Part shown: one piece after another, positions 5,063 to 10,706 of the stretch
How the letters are laid out: every line of letters begins with the position of its first letter
How positions within the stretch are numbered: the stretch's first letter is position 1
Source: Nonlabens ulvanivorans
GTDB taxonomy: Bacteria; Bacteroidota; Bacteroidia; Flavobacteriales; Flavobacteriaceae
DNA length: 64,000 nt
Direction of reading: 5' to 3'
NCBI RefSeq assembly: GCF_000755285.1
Contig: NZ_BBMK01000003.1
Location: forward strand, 62,001-126,000
Notes under the pieces: generated by a model
What the model saw: the letters and a program-made list of their open reading frames with translations, nothing else
Database searches by the model: none
What the model was told of the DNA's origin: nothing
Translations under genes and position numbers: made by a program

Positions 5063-6960
5063 ATGGATTACAATAATTTCTATAAGCAAAGTATAAAATC
5101 GCCTGAGTTATTCTGGAAAAGCCAGAGCCAAGAAATTGAGTGGTTCAAGAAGCCTCAGATTATTTTATCTAAAGACTCAAATGATTATTACCAGTGGTTT
5201 AAGGATGGTACTACAAATTTAAGTTACTTATGTATAGATAAGCATATCAATGATGGTTATGGCGAGCAACTCGCTGTTATATATGATAGTCCAGTAACTC
5301 AAAAAAAAGAATCATATACATTCTATCAATTACATGATGAGGTGTCTAGACTTGCAGGTGGATTAAAATCACTAGGTCTTGAAAAAGGAGATACTTGCTT
5401 ACTCTACATGCCTATGATACCGCAAGCTGTGTTTGCAATGTTAGCTTGTGCTAGATTGGGTATTATTCATTCTGTTGTTTTTGGCGGTTTTGCGCCTCAC
5501 GAGTTAGCGATACGTATAAATGATTGCAAGCCTAAAGCTATTATTACAGCCTCACATGGTATAGAAATAAATCGCGTCATTCCATATAAACCATTTGTAG
5601 ATATCGCGATTGAAAAAGCTGATTTTAAACCAGAGACAGTTGTTCTGTTCAAAAGAGAAGAGGCGCCAGTAATGGAACAAAAACATTATGATGTGGATTA
5701 TCAGCAATTAGTTGCAGATTCTAAGATAACGGCAGCTGTTGAATTGCCATCGACACATCCTTCATACATTTTATACACGTCTGGTACAACAGGCACGCCT
5801 AAAGGAATTATAAGAGATACAGGTGGATATGCAACTGCGCTCAAATTTTCTATGAAAAAAGTATATGGAGTAGATGAAGGTGAAACTTATTGGGCAGCAA
5901 GTGATGTAGGTTGGGTAGTAGGTCATAGTTACATTGTTTATGGACCGCTTATCAATCGCAACACCACAATATTATTTGAAGGTAAACCTATAAAGACGCC
6001 AGATGCGAGTACGTTTTGGCGTGTGATTAGTGAACACAATGTCAGTGTAATGTTTACTGCGCCTACTGCAATAAGAGCGATTAAAAAAGAAGATCCTGAT
6101 GGAGAATATATTAAAAAGTATGATCTCTCATCTTTAAAATATCAATTTCTAGCTGGTGAACGTTGTGATGCTGCAACGCTATTATGGACTAAAAAACACC
6201 TTGATGTACCAGTTATAGACCACTGGTGGCAAACTGAAAGTGGCTGGCCTATGCTAGCAAATATGGTAGGTGTAGAGTTGTTAGATAGTAAAACAGGTAG
6301 TGCAGGGAAACCAGTTTGTGGATATGATATCCAGATTTTAAATGAAAACGGCCTTGAAACAAAACCTGATGAAGAAGGTTATATCGCTATAAAACTACCA
6401 TTGCCACCTGGTACATTAATGAATATCTGGGGGGGCAATACAGAACGATTTAAAAAAGGATATCTAGAAAGATTTCAGGGCTATTATTTTTCTGGTGATG
6501 GTGGCTATAAAGATTCAGATGGTTATGTATTTGTAACAGGTCGTGTAGATGACATTATCAACGTCGCAGGTCATCGACTTTCTACTGCGAGATGGAAGAA
6601 GTGGTCTCCAGTCATAACGACGTTGCAGAGTGTGCAGTTTTTGGTATCCATTGTGACTTAAAAGGACAGCAACCGCTAGGTTTGATTGTATTGAAGAGTG
6701 AAACTTCAAATCAATTAGATCAAATTCAAAACCAAATTGTTTTAAACGTGCGTGAAGAGATTGGCGCGGTGGCTTCTCTTAGAAATGTATTAATAGTCAA
6801 CAGATTGCCTAAAACACGTAGCGGTAAGATAATGCGCAAGCTATTGCGCAACATAGCAGACGTAGATGATTTTAAAGTGCCATCTACCCTAGATGATATT
6901 CAAATCATAAGCGAGATTCAAGATGTTTATCAAGTGCATAGAATCGGAAAATTTCAATAA
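5063..6960 (+). CDS. prpE: Propionyl-CoA synthetase (PrpE/ACSS3-type), one frame break
   Basis: AMP-forming acyl-CoA synthetase activating propionate, and probably other short-chain acids, to the CoA thioester. It shows the P-loop YTSGTTGTPKG, the HWWQTESGWPM motif typical of the PrpE branch rather than Acs, GDGGYKD, and near the C-terminus PKTRSGKIMRK with the acetylatable lysine. The frame is lost near 6592 where GAGATGG should read GAGAATGG; with that A restored the protein is 632 residues, normal for the family. NIWGGNTERF is encoded across a G7 tract at about 6430, where relatives carry a single Gly. It starts 2 bp after the response regulator and precedes the Acs gene by 25 bp, so all appear co-transcribed. 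Confidence 0.85.
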
Positions 6961-6985: not shown

Positions 6986-8895
6986 ATGAGTAATTATCAC
7001 ATAAAACACCTCGAAGAATACTGGCAAGTCTATAGAAAATCAGTGCGCAATCCAGAAAGTTTCTGGGAAGAAATAGCCGAAGAACATTTCCTATGGCGCA
7101 AGAAATGGGATAAAGTATTAAGCTGGGATTTTTCAAAACCTGAAGTGAAGTGGTTTGAAGGAGCAAAACTCAATATTACAGAGAACTGTCTCGATAGACA
7201 TCTTGCTACTAGAGCAGATAAGACAGCTATTCTATTTGAACCGAATAATCCAGATGAGGAAGCTCAACACATTACTTACCGAGAATTGCATGAACGTGTT
7301 TCTAGATTTGCTAATGTTTTAAAATCGCAAGGAATAGAAAAAGGAGATCGTGTCTGTATTTATTTACCTATGATACCAGAGCTTGCTGTATCTATACTGG
7401 CCTGTGCAAGGATAGGTGCCGTACACTCAGTAGTATTTGCAGGATTTAGTTCAACGGCACTAGCGACACGTATTAATGATTGTGATTGTGAAACTATTAT
7501 ATGTAGTGATGGTAGTTATAGAAGTAAAAAAACAATAGACCTTAAAAGTATTGTAGATGAAGCTTTAGAAACCTGTCCAGGTATCAAAAAATCATTTGTT
7601 GTTAATCGAATCAATAGTGATGTAGTGATGAAAGAAGGACGTGACATATGGTTACAACCTTTATTAGATGAAGCAAGTCCTACCTGCAAGGCCACCGTTA
7701 TGGATGCAGAAGACCCTTTATTTATTTTATATACATCTGGATCAACGGGAAAGCCTAAGGGAATGGTGCACACCACGGCAGGTTACATGGTTTATACAGC
7801 ATACACCTTTAAAAATGTATTTCAATATCGAGAAAATGACGTCTACTGGTGTACTGCAGATATAGGTTGGATCACTGGCCATAGTTATATTGTGTACGGA
7901 CCGCTAGCAATGGTGCCACATCTGTCATGTTTGAAGGCGTGCCGTCATATCCTGACTATGGTAGATTCTGGGAAATAGTAGAAAAACACAAAGTCACACA
8001 GTTTTATACAGCGCCTACCGCAATTAGAGCGCTCGCTAAAGAAAATATAAGCTTTGTAGAAAATCATGATTTGAGCTCTTTAAAAGTTCTAGGTACCGTG
8101 GGCGAACCTATTAATGAAGAAGCGTGGCACTGGTATAACGACCATGTAGGCAAGAAAAATAGCCCTATAGCAGACACGTGGTTTCAAACAGAGACTGGTG
8201 GAATCATGATCTCGCCTATACCATACTCTACACCTACCATACCTACTTATGCAACTTTACCGTTACCAGGTATTCAACTAGCATTAATGGATGAAAAAGG
8301 TAAAGAATTAAGAGGTAATCAAGTTGAAGGAAGATTGACTATTAAGTATCCATGGCCATCCATGGCGCGTTCTATTTATGGTGATCATGAAAGATATAAA
8401 AACACCTATTTCAATAGTTTTGAAAACATGTACTTTACAGGTGATGGCGCTTTAAGAGATGCCGTAGGCTATTATAGAATTACAGGTCGTGTTGATGACG
8501 TGATCATCATTAGCGGTCATAATTTAGGAACAGCGCCTATAGAAGATGCGATAAATGAACATCCAGCTGTTGCAGAAAGTGCTATAGTTGGTTTCCCACA
8601 TGATATTAAAGGAAACGCTTTGTATGGTTACATCACATTAAAAGAAACCGGTGAAGGTAGAGATCATGATAACTTGCGTAAAGAAATCAACCAACTCATT
8701 GCAGATCGTATTGGTGCCATCGCAAAGCTGGATAAAATTCAATTTACAAATGGGTTGCCTAAAACTCGTAGTGGTAAAATTATGCGTCGCATTTTGAGAA
8801 AAATTGCCTGTAAAGACACCTCTAATTTAGGCGATATAAGCACACTTCTTAATCCAGAAGTCGTTGAGGATATTATGGAGGAAGCTATTGTGTAA
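6986..8895 (+). CDS. acs: Acetyl-CoA synthetase, one frame break
   Basis: Converts acetate, ATP and CoA to acetyl-CoA. Visible hallmarks are the N-terminal ACAS domain, LYTSGSTGKPKG (residues about 250-262), DTWFQTETGG, TGDGALRD, the VDDVIIISGHNLGTA hinge and PKTRSGKIMRR carrying the regulatory lysine. Frame is lost near 7910 where GCAATGG should be GCAAATGG (reading YGPLANGATSVMFEG); the repaired protein is 636 residues, close to the usual Acs length. With the upstream symporter it forms a complete acetate uptake and activation route, and the linked SSS-type kinase and regulator are candidate controllers. A hairpin after the stop closes the operon. Confidence 0.9.
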
Positions 8896-9082: not shown

Positions 9083-9532
9083 ATGAAAACATATATAAAT
9101 ATAACAGCAGCCCTAGTTTTTCTTTTATCAATTCAAAGTAATGCACAAGTTTTTCAAGATCAGTTAGATGAAATTTATTTAGGGTCAGCAAAAGTAGAGT
9201 TGAATGATTTTATACTGCTAAATAGTGAAATAAGTAACAGTGATCGATTTAAGTTTAGTAAAGCACTGCGTGCCGCTAGAAATGGACAAGATAGCTTGGT
9301 ATTTACGAGTGATAAATATCGTCTAGCACTAACAGAAGTAGAGTACTTAAAACTGATTAGAAGAACGGCAAATCAAAGTAGTGATTCAACAGAATTTGTA
9401 ACTAAGCTCAGTGCTCAAATGCCATCATTAAAAGATATTATTGAATCTGATGCCTCTTATACTAATCTTTATGAAGCTGTAAGGCCTGCCACATTTTATG
9501 GTAGAATAGAGGCTTTACCAGATGTACTGTAA
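9083..9532 (+). CDS. Secreted protein of unknown function
   Basis: 149 residues with a clear signal peptide (ITAALVFLLSIQSNAQ, cleavage probably after NAQ) followed by a polar, mostly helical chain with no cysteines and no motif I recognise. It stands alone between two terminators, so it is probably transcribed by itself. Periplasmic or extracellular location is inferred from the signal peptide. Confidence 0.7.
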   Translation: MKTYINITAALVFLLSIQSNAQVFQDQLDEIYLGSAKVELNDFILLNSEISNSDRFKFSKALRAARNGQDSLVFTSDKYRLALTEVEYLKLIRRTANQSSDSTEFVTKLSAQMPSLKDIIESDASYTNLYEAVRPATFYGRIEALPDVL

Positions 9533-9631: not shown

Positions 9632-10606
9632 TTAAGAACTACACGTCCTTTCTTTCCAAGCTTGTCCAAAGGGTGATAAATACAGAATTTTATCAGTTTT
9701 ACGAGATTGTGCATACCATTTCTTTTGTTGTGGACTTAAATATTGTTGTGCATCATTTCTATTTCCTAAAGCACTATTTATCAATGTGCGCTGTAGAGGA
9801 GATAAAGGTAAATACTGGTAGTTACTATGTTTTAAATAATAATCTTCATCTTTAGAACTGATTCTGTAAGATTGATCCTTTTTAATAGGACGCATTTCTT
9901 GACTATTTGCATAACTATTTAAATCATTAATGTTTAATGCAGTGCTGTCATAGGTTACTTTTACTACCTCATAACCATTCATAAATCCTGCCTCGGTATT
10001 CAATATACCAGGTTGAGTGCCTAATAGCTTCTCGCCACTCCAGAAACAGTACATGCTGTAGTAGGTTTCTTTATTTCTGGAATCTATATGGCCATAAAGC
10101 TCCTTTGCTAAAATCATCATGTACTGCGGGATCTCTTTTTTGCTAACTTTTAAAGCATTTTCCATTGCGCGATATAATCCTTGGGCACTGTAATCATGTC
10201 CCACGCGATCTACGATATCTACACCATCATAATCTACAATACGTACCACGGGATTATTCCATGCAGGTTCTTTATATATCTTTAATACATCTTTATCCTT
10301 ACCGCCTTTATTATTAAAAATAGCTAAGGGAATAAATTCATTTTGAATAGCCTCAGTCATCAATGGGTTACTCAATACATTGTGACCATAGTTACGACAG
10401 GTAGCGCATCCAGGTACTTCTTGAAATAAAATAAGAACTGGTTTATTGTATTCTTTAGATAATTGTAACGCGGTTGAATAATCTCTATACCAGCTTACAG
10501 CACCTAATTCCTTATCTTGATTTTTTGGGTCTGTTCTTTGTGCGCTTGTAGCTATTGAGTATAGTGCTAAGCTTATAGCTATAATAGTGTTTACAGTATT
10601 TTTCAT
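9632..10606 (-). CDS. Secreted thioredoxin-fold protein with C-terminal MsrA-like domain
   Basis: Periplasmic redox protein of two parts. After a signal peptide (IIAISLALYSIATSAQ) comes a thioredoxin-like domain with VPGCATCRNYG, both cysteines being ordinary TGC/TGT codons; this resembles the family named for its VPGU motif, in which some members carry selenocysteine. The second half contains YCFWSGEKLLG, an NTEAGFMNGYEVVKVTYDS stretch and a short C-terminal tail, closely matching the GCFWG...GY.GG...V.YDP pattern of peptide methionine sulfoxide reductase A. A reductant fused to an oxidised-methionine repair domain is the simplest reading. I chose the start at 10606 (MKNTVN) because it directly precedes the signal peptide; an upstream ATG at 10639 adds 11 residues. 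Single gene with its own terminator. Confidence 0.65.
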   Translation of the reverse strand: MKNTVNTIIAISLALYSIATSAQRTDPKNQDKELGAVSWYRDYSTALQLSKEYNKPVLILFQEVPGCATCRNYGHNVLSNPLMTEAIQNEFIPLAIFNNKGGKDKDVLKIYKEPAWNNPVVRIVDYDGVDIVDRVGHDYSAQGLYRAMENALKVSKKEIPQYMMILAKELYGHIDSRNKETYYSMYCFWSGEKLLGTQPGILNTEAGFMNGYEVVKVTYDSTALNINDLNSYANSQEMRPIKKDQSYRISSKDEDYYLKHSNYQYLPLSPLQRTLINSALGNRNDAQQYLSPQQKKWYAQSRKTDKILYLSPFGQAWKERTCSS

Positions 10607-10706
10607 AACCTTTTTATTTGGATTAAAAATAGAGTTCATTTATATTAAAGGTGTCACGTTTATATAACAATATTGTGATTGTTAAACACTTGTGTTATTT
10701 TGTTTA

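Follow-up and report, generated by a model that had tools for sequence, protein, structure and literature searches.

A minus-strand gene in the window, by which we mean the whole 64,000-nucleotide stretch of Nonlabens ulvanivorans DNA analyzed here, encodes a protein that joins a thioredoxin-fold domain to a C-terminal half that is truly methionine sulfoxide reductase A (MsrA)-like by homology and by predicted fold. From its sequence and modeled structure, we consider it reasonably probable that this is a two-domain exported thiol enzyme in which the trimmed MsrA-like half reduces a sulfoxide, the thioredoxin half resolves C187, and DsbD recharges the protein. It may thus be a one-piece, self-recycling repair enzyme, and its enzyme activity is a well-founded guess.

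A thioredoxin-like and an MsrA-like domain in one reading frame

The open reading frame (ORF) runs uninterrupted on the minus strand from an outer ATG at 10639 to 9632 (10639..9632; 335 aa), and residues are numbered here from the inner ATG at 10606 (the 324-aa form; Table 1). The putative signal peptide, MKNTVNTIIAISLALYSIATSA, was judged by eye, as was the hydrophobic N-terminal stretch also present in several relatives. VPGCATC and YCFWSGE...GYEVVKVTYDS lie in one frame, as an earlier note on this DNA had claimed. Almost the entire chain (residues 44 to 308 of 335) matched NCBIfam model NF041383 over profile positions 1 to 286 of 287, with 303.8 bits against a curated cut-off of 275 (E = 1.4e-90); the observation is real and the match far beyond chance, and by that cut-off the protein belongs to the family named "VPGUxxT family thioredoxin-like (seleno)protein, type 2."

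Table 1. Features of the gene and its product in window coordinates
Feature	Position	Strand	Residues and remarks
Whole gene	10606..9632 (stop codon included)	minus	324 aa from the inner ATG
Apparent Sec signal peptide	10541..10606	minus	Residues 1-22; no visible lipobox; judged by eye
Thioredoxin-fold domain	10133..10501	minus	Residues 36-158; Thioredoxin_7 and fold match to 3f9u
VPGCATC redox motif	10397..10417	minus	C67 (80/80 rows) and C70 (78/80 rows)
MsrA-like domain	9704..10087	minus	Residues 174-301; range from structural match of the full-length model
Cys-Phe-Trp motif	10040..10048	minus	C187-F188-W189; aligns with MsrA GCFW; within MYCFWSGE
E213	9968..9970	minus	Counterpart of the MsrA acid-catalyst Glu (GHAE); aligns with HAE
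Residues 238-240	9887..9895	minus	Segment bearing the third Cys of most aligned relatives is missing here
Tyr pair	9836..9841	minus	Y256-Y257; conserved, downstream of the trimmed region

The first half, called thioredoxin-like in the earlier note, proved to have a thioredoxin fold: Pfam Thioredoxin_7 matched it at 34.5 bits, over a cut-off of 27, and the model resembled 3f9u (Z = 14.3; 120 aligned residues; rmsd, 2.4). The full-length predicted model had a mean pLDDT of 93.5 and a pTM of 0.88, and its N-terminal half also matched DsbD-gamma entries, with Z scores of 11.3 to 12.2. This half shares its fold with DsbD-gamma and with 3f9u, the C-terminal domain of a Bacteroides DsbD-type protein, but in the window protein it is fused to an MsrA-like domain and, judging by sequence, stands outside any membrane protein.

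The standard MsrA models did not recognize the C-terminal half as a whole domain. Pfam PMSR (PF01625) scored 23.7 bits, exactly its cut-off, over profile positions 4 to 42 of 153, and fell below the cut-off in the genome search (21.9 bits); the NCBI MsrA model, TIGR00401, clearly failed (18.8 bits against a cut-off of 108.1). Searched against the PDB, a profile of 57 C-terminal halves hit MsrA structures with a best E of 1.7e-8; the match consisted of two stretches in the correct order, CFW...G and then EVV. In hhalign, the C-half profile matched 14 canonical MsrA sequences with a probability of 98.5% (E = 2.4e-15), and the global-mode profile-profile comparison gave 98.9% (E = 1.7e-16). Modeled alone, the C-terminal half (mean pLDDT, 95.9) had Clostridium oremlandii MsrA (CoMsrA) at the top of the Foldseek ranking (E = 1.8e-5) and reached Z = 12.3 in VIA-align against 4lwj (125 residues; rmsd, 2.6; C. 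oremlandii rows, 12.0 to 12.3). Other MsrA structures gave Z scores of 8.3 to 10.5 over 78 to 98 residues, and the low end of this block overlapped that of unrelated ferredoxin-like domains (V-ATPase subunit C, heavy-metal domains, and AcuB; Z = 7.6 to 8.5), a background well below the C. oremlandii rows. The earlier note had called the second half MsrA-like and had offered failure to match the MsrA profile or fold as the result that would overturn this; that test was run and the assignment survived it, since profile and predicted fold agree. A chance likeness to MsrA is ruled out by the profile-profile and fold results.

Active-site residues and cysteine pattern

Relatives were sought by scanning genome contigs with the patterns MYCFW[TS]G and [LF]ILFQEVP, which biases the set toward rows carrying these motifs; 302 were found and the best 80 were retained, giving 80 aligned rows (the window protein and 79 relatives). 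In one relative (L124), an apparent in-frame stop is simply the normal C-terminal end of the protein, past which the match had run. Among these best 80 of 302, 10 rows without the first pattern and 32 without the second still keep C67 and C187. C187, W189, and E213 were present in all of the best 80 and F188 in 79, the catalytic Cys-Phe-Trp and the acid Glu of MsrA both being in place. C187 and E213 correspond to Cys51 and Glu94, the catalytic cysteine and the acid of MsrA, roles that are described in passages of PMC6210582. Compared with canonical MsrA, the domain has a 17-residue gap over NPTY..TGHA, ahead of the Glu, and a 15-residue gap around HDPT..NRQG..D.G. The missing segments are those that we take to hold MsrA Tyr82 and Asp129 (E. 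coli numbering). The Tyr134 column is occupied by Cys in 59 of the best 80 rows and by Met in the window protein, which lacks Tyr82, Asp129, and Tyr134 alike.

The tyrosine pair Y256-Y257 (present in 78 and 80, respectively, of the best 80 of 302 rows) may stand in for the lost active-site residues. In CoMsrA, too, an active-site Tyr140 lies near the end of the catalytic domain (passages of PMC4479559), a possible parallel to the pair. Because two loops carrying further active-site residues of MsrA are gone, we rate methionine sulfoxide as a likely substrate of the C-terminal half, and no more firmly than that.

C67 and C187 were the only cysteines common to all of the best 80 of 302 rows, and their spacing was 116 to 120 residues throughout. 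C70 was present in 78 of these rows, with Ala in the other two (L093 and L118). A third domain cysteine (column 250) occurred in 59 of the best 80 and was absent from the window protein and 20 others; a quick tree, weak at many branches (of its 77 inner ones, 26 are starred and 25 drawn open), requires at least 14 changes in it. Past the first 40 alignment columns, C67, C70, and C187 were the sole cysteines in 15 of the best 80 rows, and C67 and C187 were the sole cysteines in 2, again L093 and L118. The C-terminal half of the window protein has C187 and, near the C terminus, one cysteine found in no other row. That C67 and C187 are kept in every row while the third cysteine changes at least 14 times is expected if the two act together, and we infer, as the simplest reading of the cysteine pattern, that C67 would directly resolve oxidized C187.

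The two ORFs with Ala in place of C70 (L093, 292 to 1413; L118, 5869 to 6969; both labeled Deltaproteobacteria) carry VPGCSTA and have two cysteines each, one in each domain.

Genomic context

An operon in the window was rejected: the flanking genes are convergent (9083 to 9532) and divergent (ATG at approximately 10751), and the gene stands alone. A promoter scan gave 5 promoter-like sites versus 6.9 in shuffles, i.e., the shuffle level, and a terminator scan gave one terminator-like site versus 0.5 expected, which played no part in the argument. Also in the window, two neighboring acyl/acetyl-CoA synthetase-like genes (by eye) each consist of two overlapping ORFs (5063 to 6661 and 6592 to 6960; 6986 to 7978 and 7927 to 8895); these split ORFs, in different frames, look like frameshifts arising from sequencing error or decay.

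A canonical MsrA gene directly adjoins the gene in four of the best 80 of 302 loci (L053, L058, L059, and L065), on the same strand and 28 to 90 bases away. The adjoining MsrA genes have a signal-like (lipoprotein-like) start, and the adjacency counts as three changes when placed on the tree. Of 621 flanking ORFs, 145 are immediate neighbors, and all four MsrA ORFs fall in that group. MsrA was sought by the pattern G[CU]FW, so that a divergent MsrA escapes, and some loci have short flanks. Since two of the four loci are closely related, the adjacency is modest evidence. No MsrA gene lies beside the window gene, and no general conserved partner was found across the 80 loci; among the first 25 neighbor clusters listed, the three largest held 9, 8, and 8 loci and were not redox-like by eye. 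At one further locus (L092), an ORF that is thioredoxin-like lies 107 bases upstream of the gene.

Elsewhere, the window genome carries two MsrB genes, one DsbD-type locus, and three further MsrA-type genes, of which one looks exported by eye. One of these three, a divergent 158-aa MsrA (L043, 1483 to 1959), has GGCHWCTE in place of GCFW and scores 72.4 bits to PF01625. The DsbD-type gene (L147) is present in the draft as two ORFs, 721 to 2073 and 2178 to 2762, which by eye correspond to the N-terminal part and the membrane-plus-gamma part.

Proposed mechanism and alternatives

In the route that we favor, the loop-trimmed MsrA-like domain would reduce a sulfoxide, most likely methionine-S-sulfoxide of envelope proteins. 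C187 would attack the sulfoxide, with E213 as the acid, and would itself become a sulfenic acid, which C67 of the thioredoxin-fold domain would then attack. C70 would resolve the resulting C67-C187 mixed disulfide to give a C67-C70 disulfide, and this would be reduced again by inner-membrane DsbD.

In favor of this explanation we count the nearest structural relative, CoMsrA, a 1-Cys enzyme for which attack by a glutaredoxin is proposed (passages of PMC4479559). We also count in its favor the fold and homology of both halves, the presence of C67, C187, W189, and E213 in all of the best 80 rows, the narrow range of the C67-C187 spacing together with the two-domain model (pTM, 0.88), the canonical MsrA adjoining in 4 of the 80 loci, and the single DsbD-type locus of the window genome. 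Against it, we know of no activity for any NF041383 member; the domain has lost the Tyr82/Asp129 segments and has Cys or another residue in place of Tyr134; TIGR00401 gave 18.8 of 108.1 bits; and MsrA adjacency is limited to 4 of 80 loci and absent in the window. With one exported-looking MsrA, two more MsrA-type genes, and two MsrB genes already present in the genome, the need for another is questionable. The search-pattern bias and the restriction to the best 80 of 302 also count against it, an objection tempered by the rows that lack the patterns yet keep both cysteines.

The cysteine at the Tyr134 position (CADxVY) suggests that the MsrA-like half could resolve itself as in 2-Cys MsrA, with the thioredoxin half reducing the internal disulfide later, in the manner of ordinary MsrA/Trx pairs. 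That cysteine is present in 59 of the best 80 of 302 rows, where it aligns with an MsrA active-site position, and it recurs in a stand-alone C-terminal half described below (L040); however, 21 of the rows, including the window protein, are without it, and it changes at least 14 times on the quick tree. Because the window protein lacks it, self-resolution is not its mechanism, though it is possible for most of the aligned relatives, and overall we consider this reading quite unlikely. A change of substrate, which we regard as unlikely, would fit the loss of both substrate-side MsrA segments: the MsrA-like half would act on another sulfoxide, a peroxide, or a protein sulfenic acid by the same CFW cysteine chemistry. 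The three other MsrA-type and two MsrB genes of the genome fit such a role, and a gene beside canonical MsrA in four loci could have its own task, but the catalytic Cys, the Phe/Trp, and the acid Glu are all retained, and the MsrA neighbors equally fit a methionine sulfoxide pathway.

The protein could also be a disulfide reductase or electron carrier whose MsrA-like half is a non-catalytic binding or docking domain, for example one feeding a separate canonical MsrA. Adjoining MsrA genes with signal-like starts (4 of the best 80 of 302 loci) and a family name that refers to the thioredoxin domain alone are compatible with this, but a CFW Cys and a Glu kept in 80 of 80 rows are unexpected for a mere docking domain, and two members retain C67 and C187 as their sole cysteines, which makes it very improbable. 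If sulfoxide reduction with resolution of C187 by C67 is true, it would provide a direct intramolecular recycling route for a 1-Cys MsrA, on a small MsrA-like scaffold that retains the Cys, Phe/Trp, and Glu without the two usual segments.

Comparison with known systems

The best structural match, the selenoprotein MsrA of C. oremlandii (4lwj), is a 1-Cys enzyme, and the window MsrA domain is likewise without a conserved resolving Cys, although 59 of the best 80 of 302 rows have the third Cys. CoMsrA differs in having only 13% identity to the window C-terminal half, from which two canonical segments are missing. It also stands alone, and a separate glutaredoxin is proposed to attack its sulfenic acid, according to passages of PMC4479559 in which the 1-Cys MsrA mechanism is called poorly understood beside the 2- and 3-Cys forms. 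By its overall range, the structural alignment reaches CoMsrA residue 204, a position inside the stretch (residues 145 to 209) that PMC4479559 assigns to an extra C-terminal helical domain of CoMsrA.

The combination of a thioredoxin-like domain with MsrA in a single exported chain is already known. The exported form of Neisseria PilB, as described in passages of PMC6210582, consists of a thioredoxin-like N-terminal domain, MsrA, and MsrB, and the N-terminal domain is reduced by nDsbD in vitro. Like PilB, the window protein has a thioredoxin-like and an MsrA domain in one chain, its export being putative, and the PilB MsrA domain matched the window C-terminal half with Z scores of 9.5 to 9.7 over 81 to 83 residues. 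PilB has a TlpA-fold N-terminal domain, a full MsrA, and an MsrB, whereas the window protein has a Thioredoxin_7/DsbD-gamma-like domain and a trimmed MsrA; MsrB (PF01641) had no match in the window chain, nor at the place of the gene in the genome search. The thioredoxin-like domain of PilB recycles the Msr domains of its own chain efficiently for MsrB alone and not for MsrA (passages of PMC6210582), which argues somewhat against the analogy. The novelty lies in the trimming of the MsrA domain, in a donor that resembles DsbD-gamma, and in the conservation of C67 and C187 as a pair.

Selenocysteine and distribution of family NF041383

A literature text search for the motif name returned a 2026 review (PMC13188914) as the relevant match, and its table of prokaryotic selenoproteins has a VPGUxxT thioredoxin-like protein as hypothetical protein OS_HP5, from a 2007 paper. 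The earlier note had held that some relatives of the N-terminal domain have selenocysteine, which fits both this table entry and the name of NF041383. A relation to MsrA is mentioned neither in that name nor in the table entry and accompanying passages of the review; the NF041383 model spans the MsrA-like half too, yet the family name refers to the thioredoxin motif alone. The window protein resembles the family in its VPG[C/U] site and its near full-length match above the cut-off, but has Cys in a CxxC motif where the name implies selenocysteine in UxxT. The VPG site is Cys in all of the best 80 of 302 loci, and that of the window protein is encoded by a Cys codon and hence is not selenocysteine; since "(seleno)" in the family name allows Cys forms, this is no bar to membership. 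A selenocysteine reading in the window genome was rejected, with no tRNA-Sec above the gathering score in this 86.9% complete assembly (best score, 40.3 of 47 bits; seven weaker rings).

For the family as a whole, we propose, tentatively and with some doubt, a single-chain sulfoxide reductase whose thioredoxin-fold Cys (selenocysteine in some members) resolves a 1-Cys, loop-trimmed MsrA. This gives a testable function to the selenoprotein family VPGUxxT type 2/OS_HP5, which is listed without a stated function. If true, selenium would reside in the built-in reductant, outside the MsrA active site, and the monothiol members (VPGCSTA, two cysteines in total) would turn over via a single C67-C187 bond.

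Among the best 80 of 302 relatives, 77 are labeled Saprospiraceae or other Bacteroidetes, the remaining labels being two Deltaproteobacteria (L093 and L118) and one Ignavibacteriales (L103). Family matches above the cut-off were found in 6 of 23 genomes of the window's genus, in just the window's own genome among 196 in the order sample, in 3 of 395 genomes in the phylum sample (the window's own included), and in 20 of 198 genomes in an order sample centered on the L038 genome, whose protein is identical to a Portibacter lacus protein. From these low and uneven counts, the family appears patchy. The surrounding 3.8 kb are retained in two genomes of the genus (L035 and L036; 89.9 and 92.7% DNA identity), and in three others (L033, L034, and L037) the match is confined to the gene itself.

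One Bacteroidota genome (L040) has a stand-alone C-terminal half without the thioredoxin domain, matching NF041383 positions 150 to 286 with 101.5 bits; a search of 98 genomes from the order of L040 at E = 1e-15 found such a form in one. This stand-alone relative of the C-terminal half (998 to 1941; 147 aa) has CIRW in place of CFW and keeps the CAD cysteine, and its start overlaps the end of another ORF that lies upstream.
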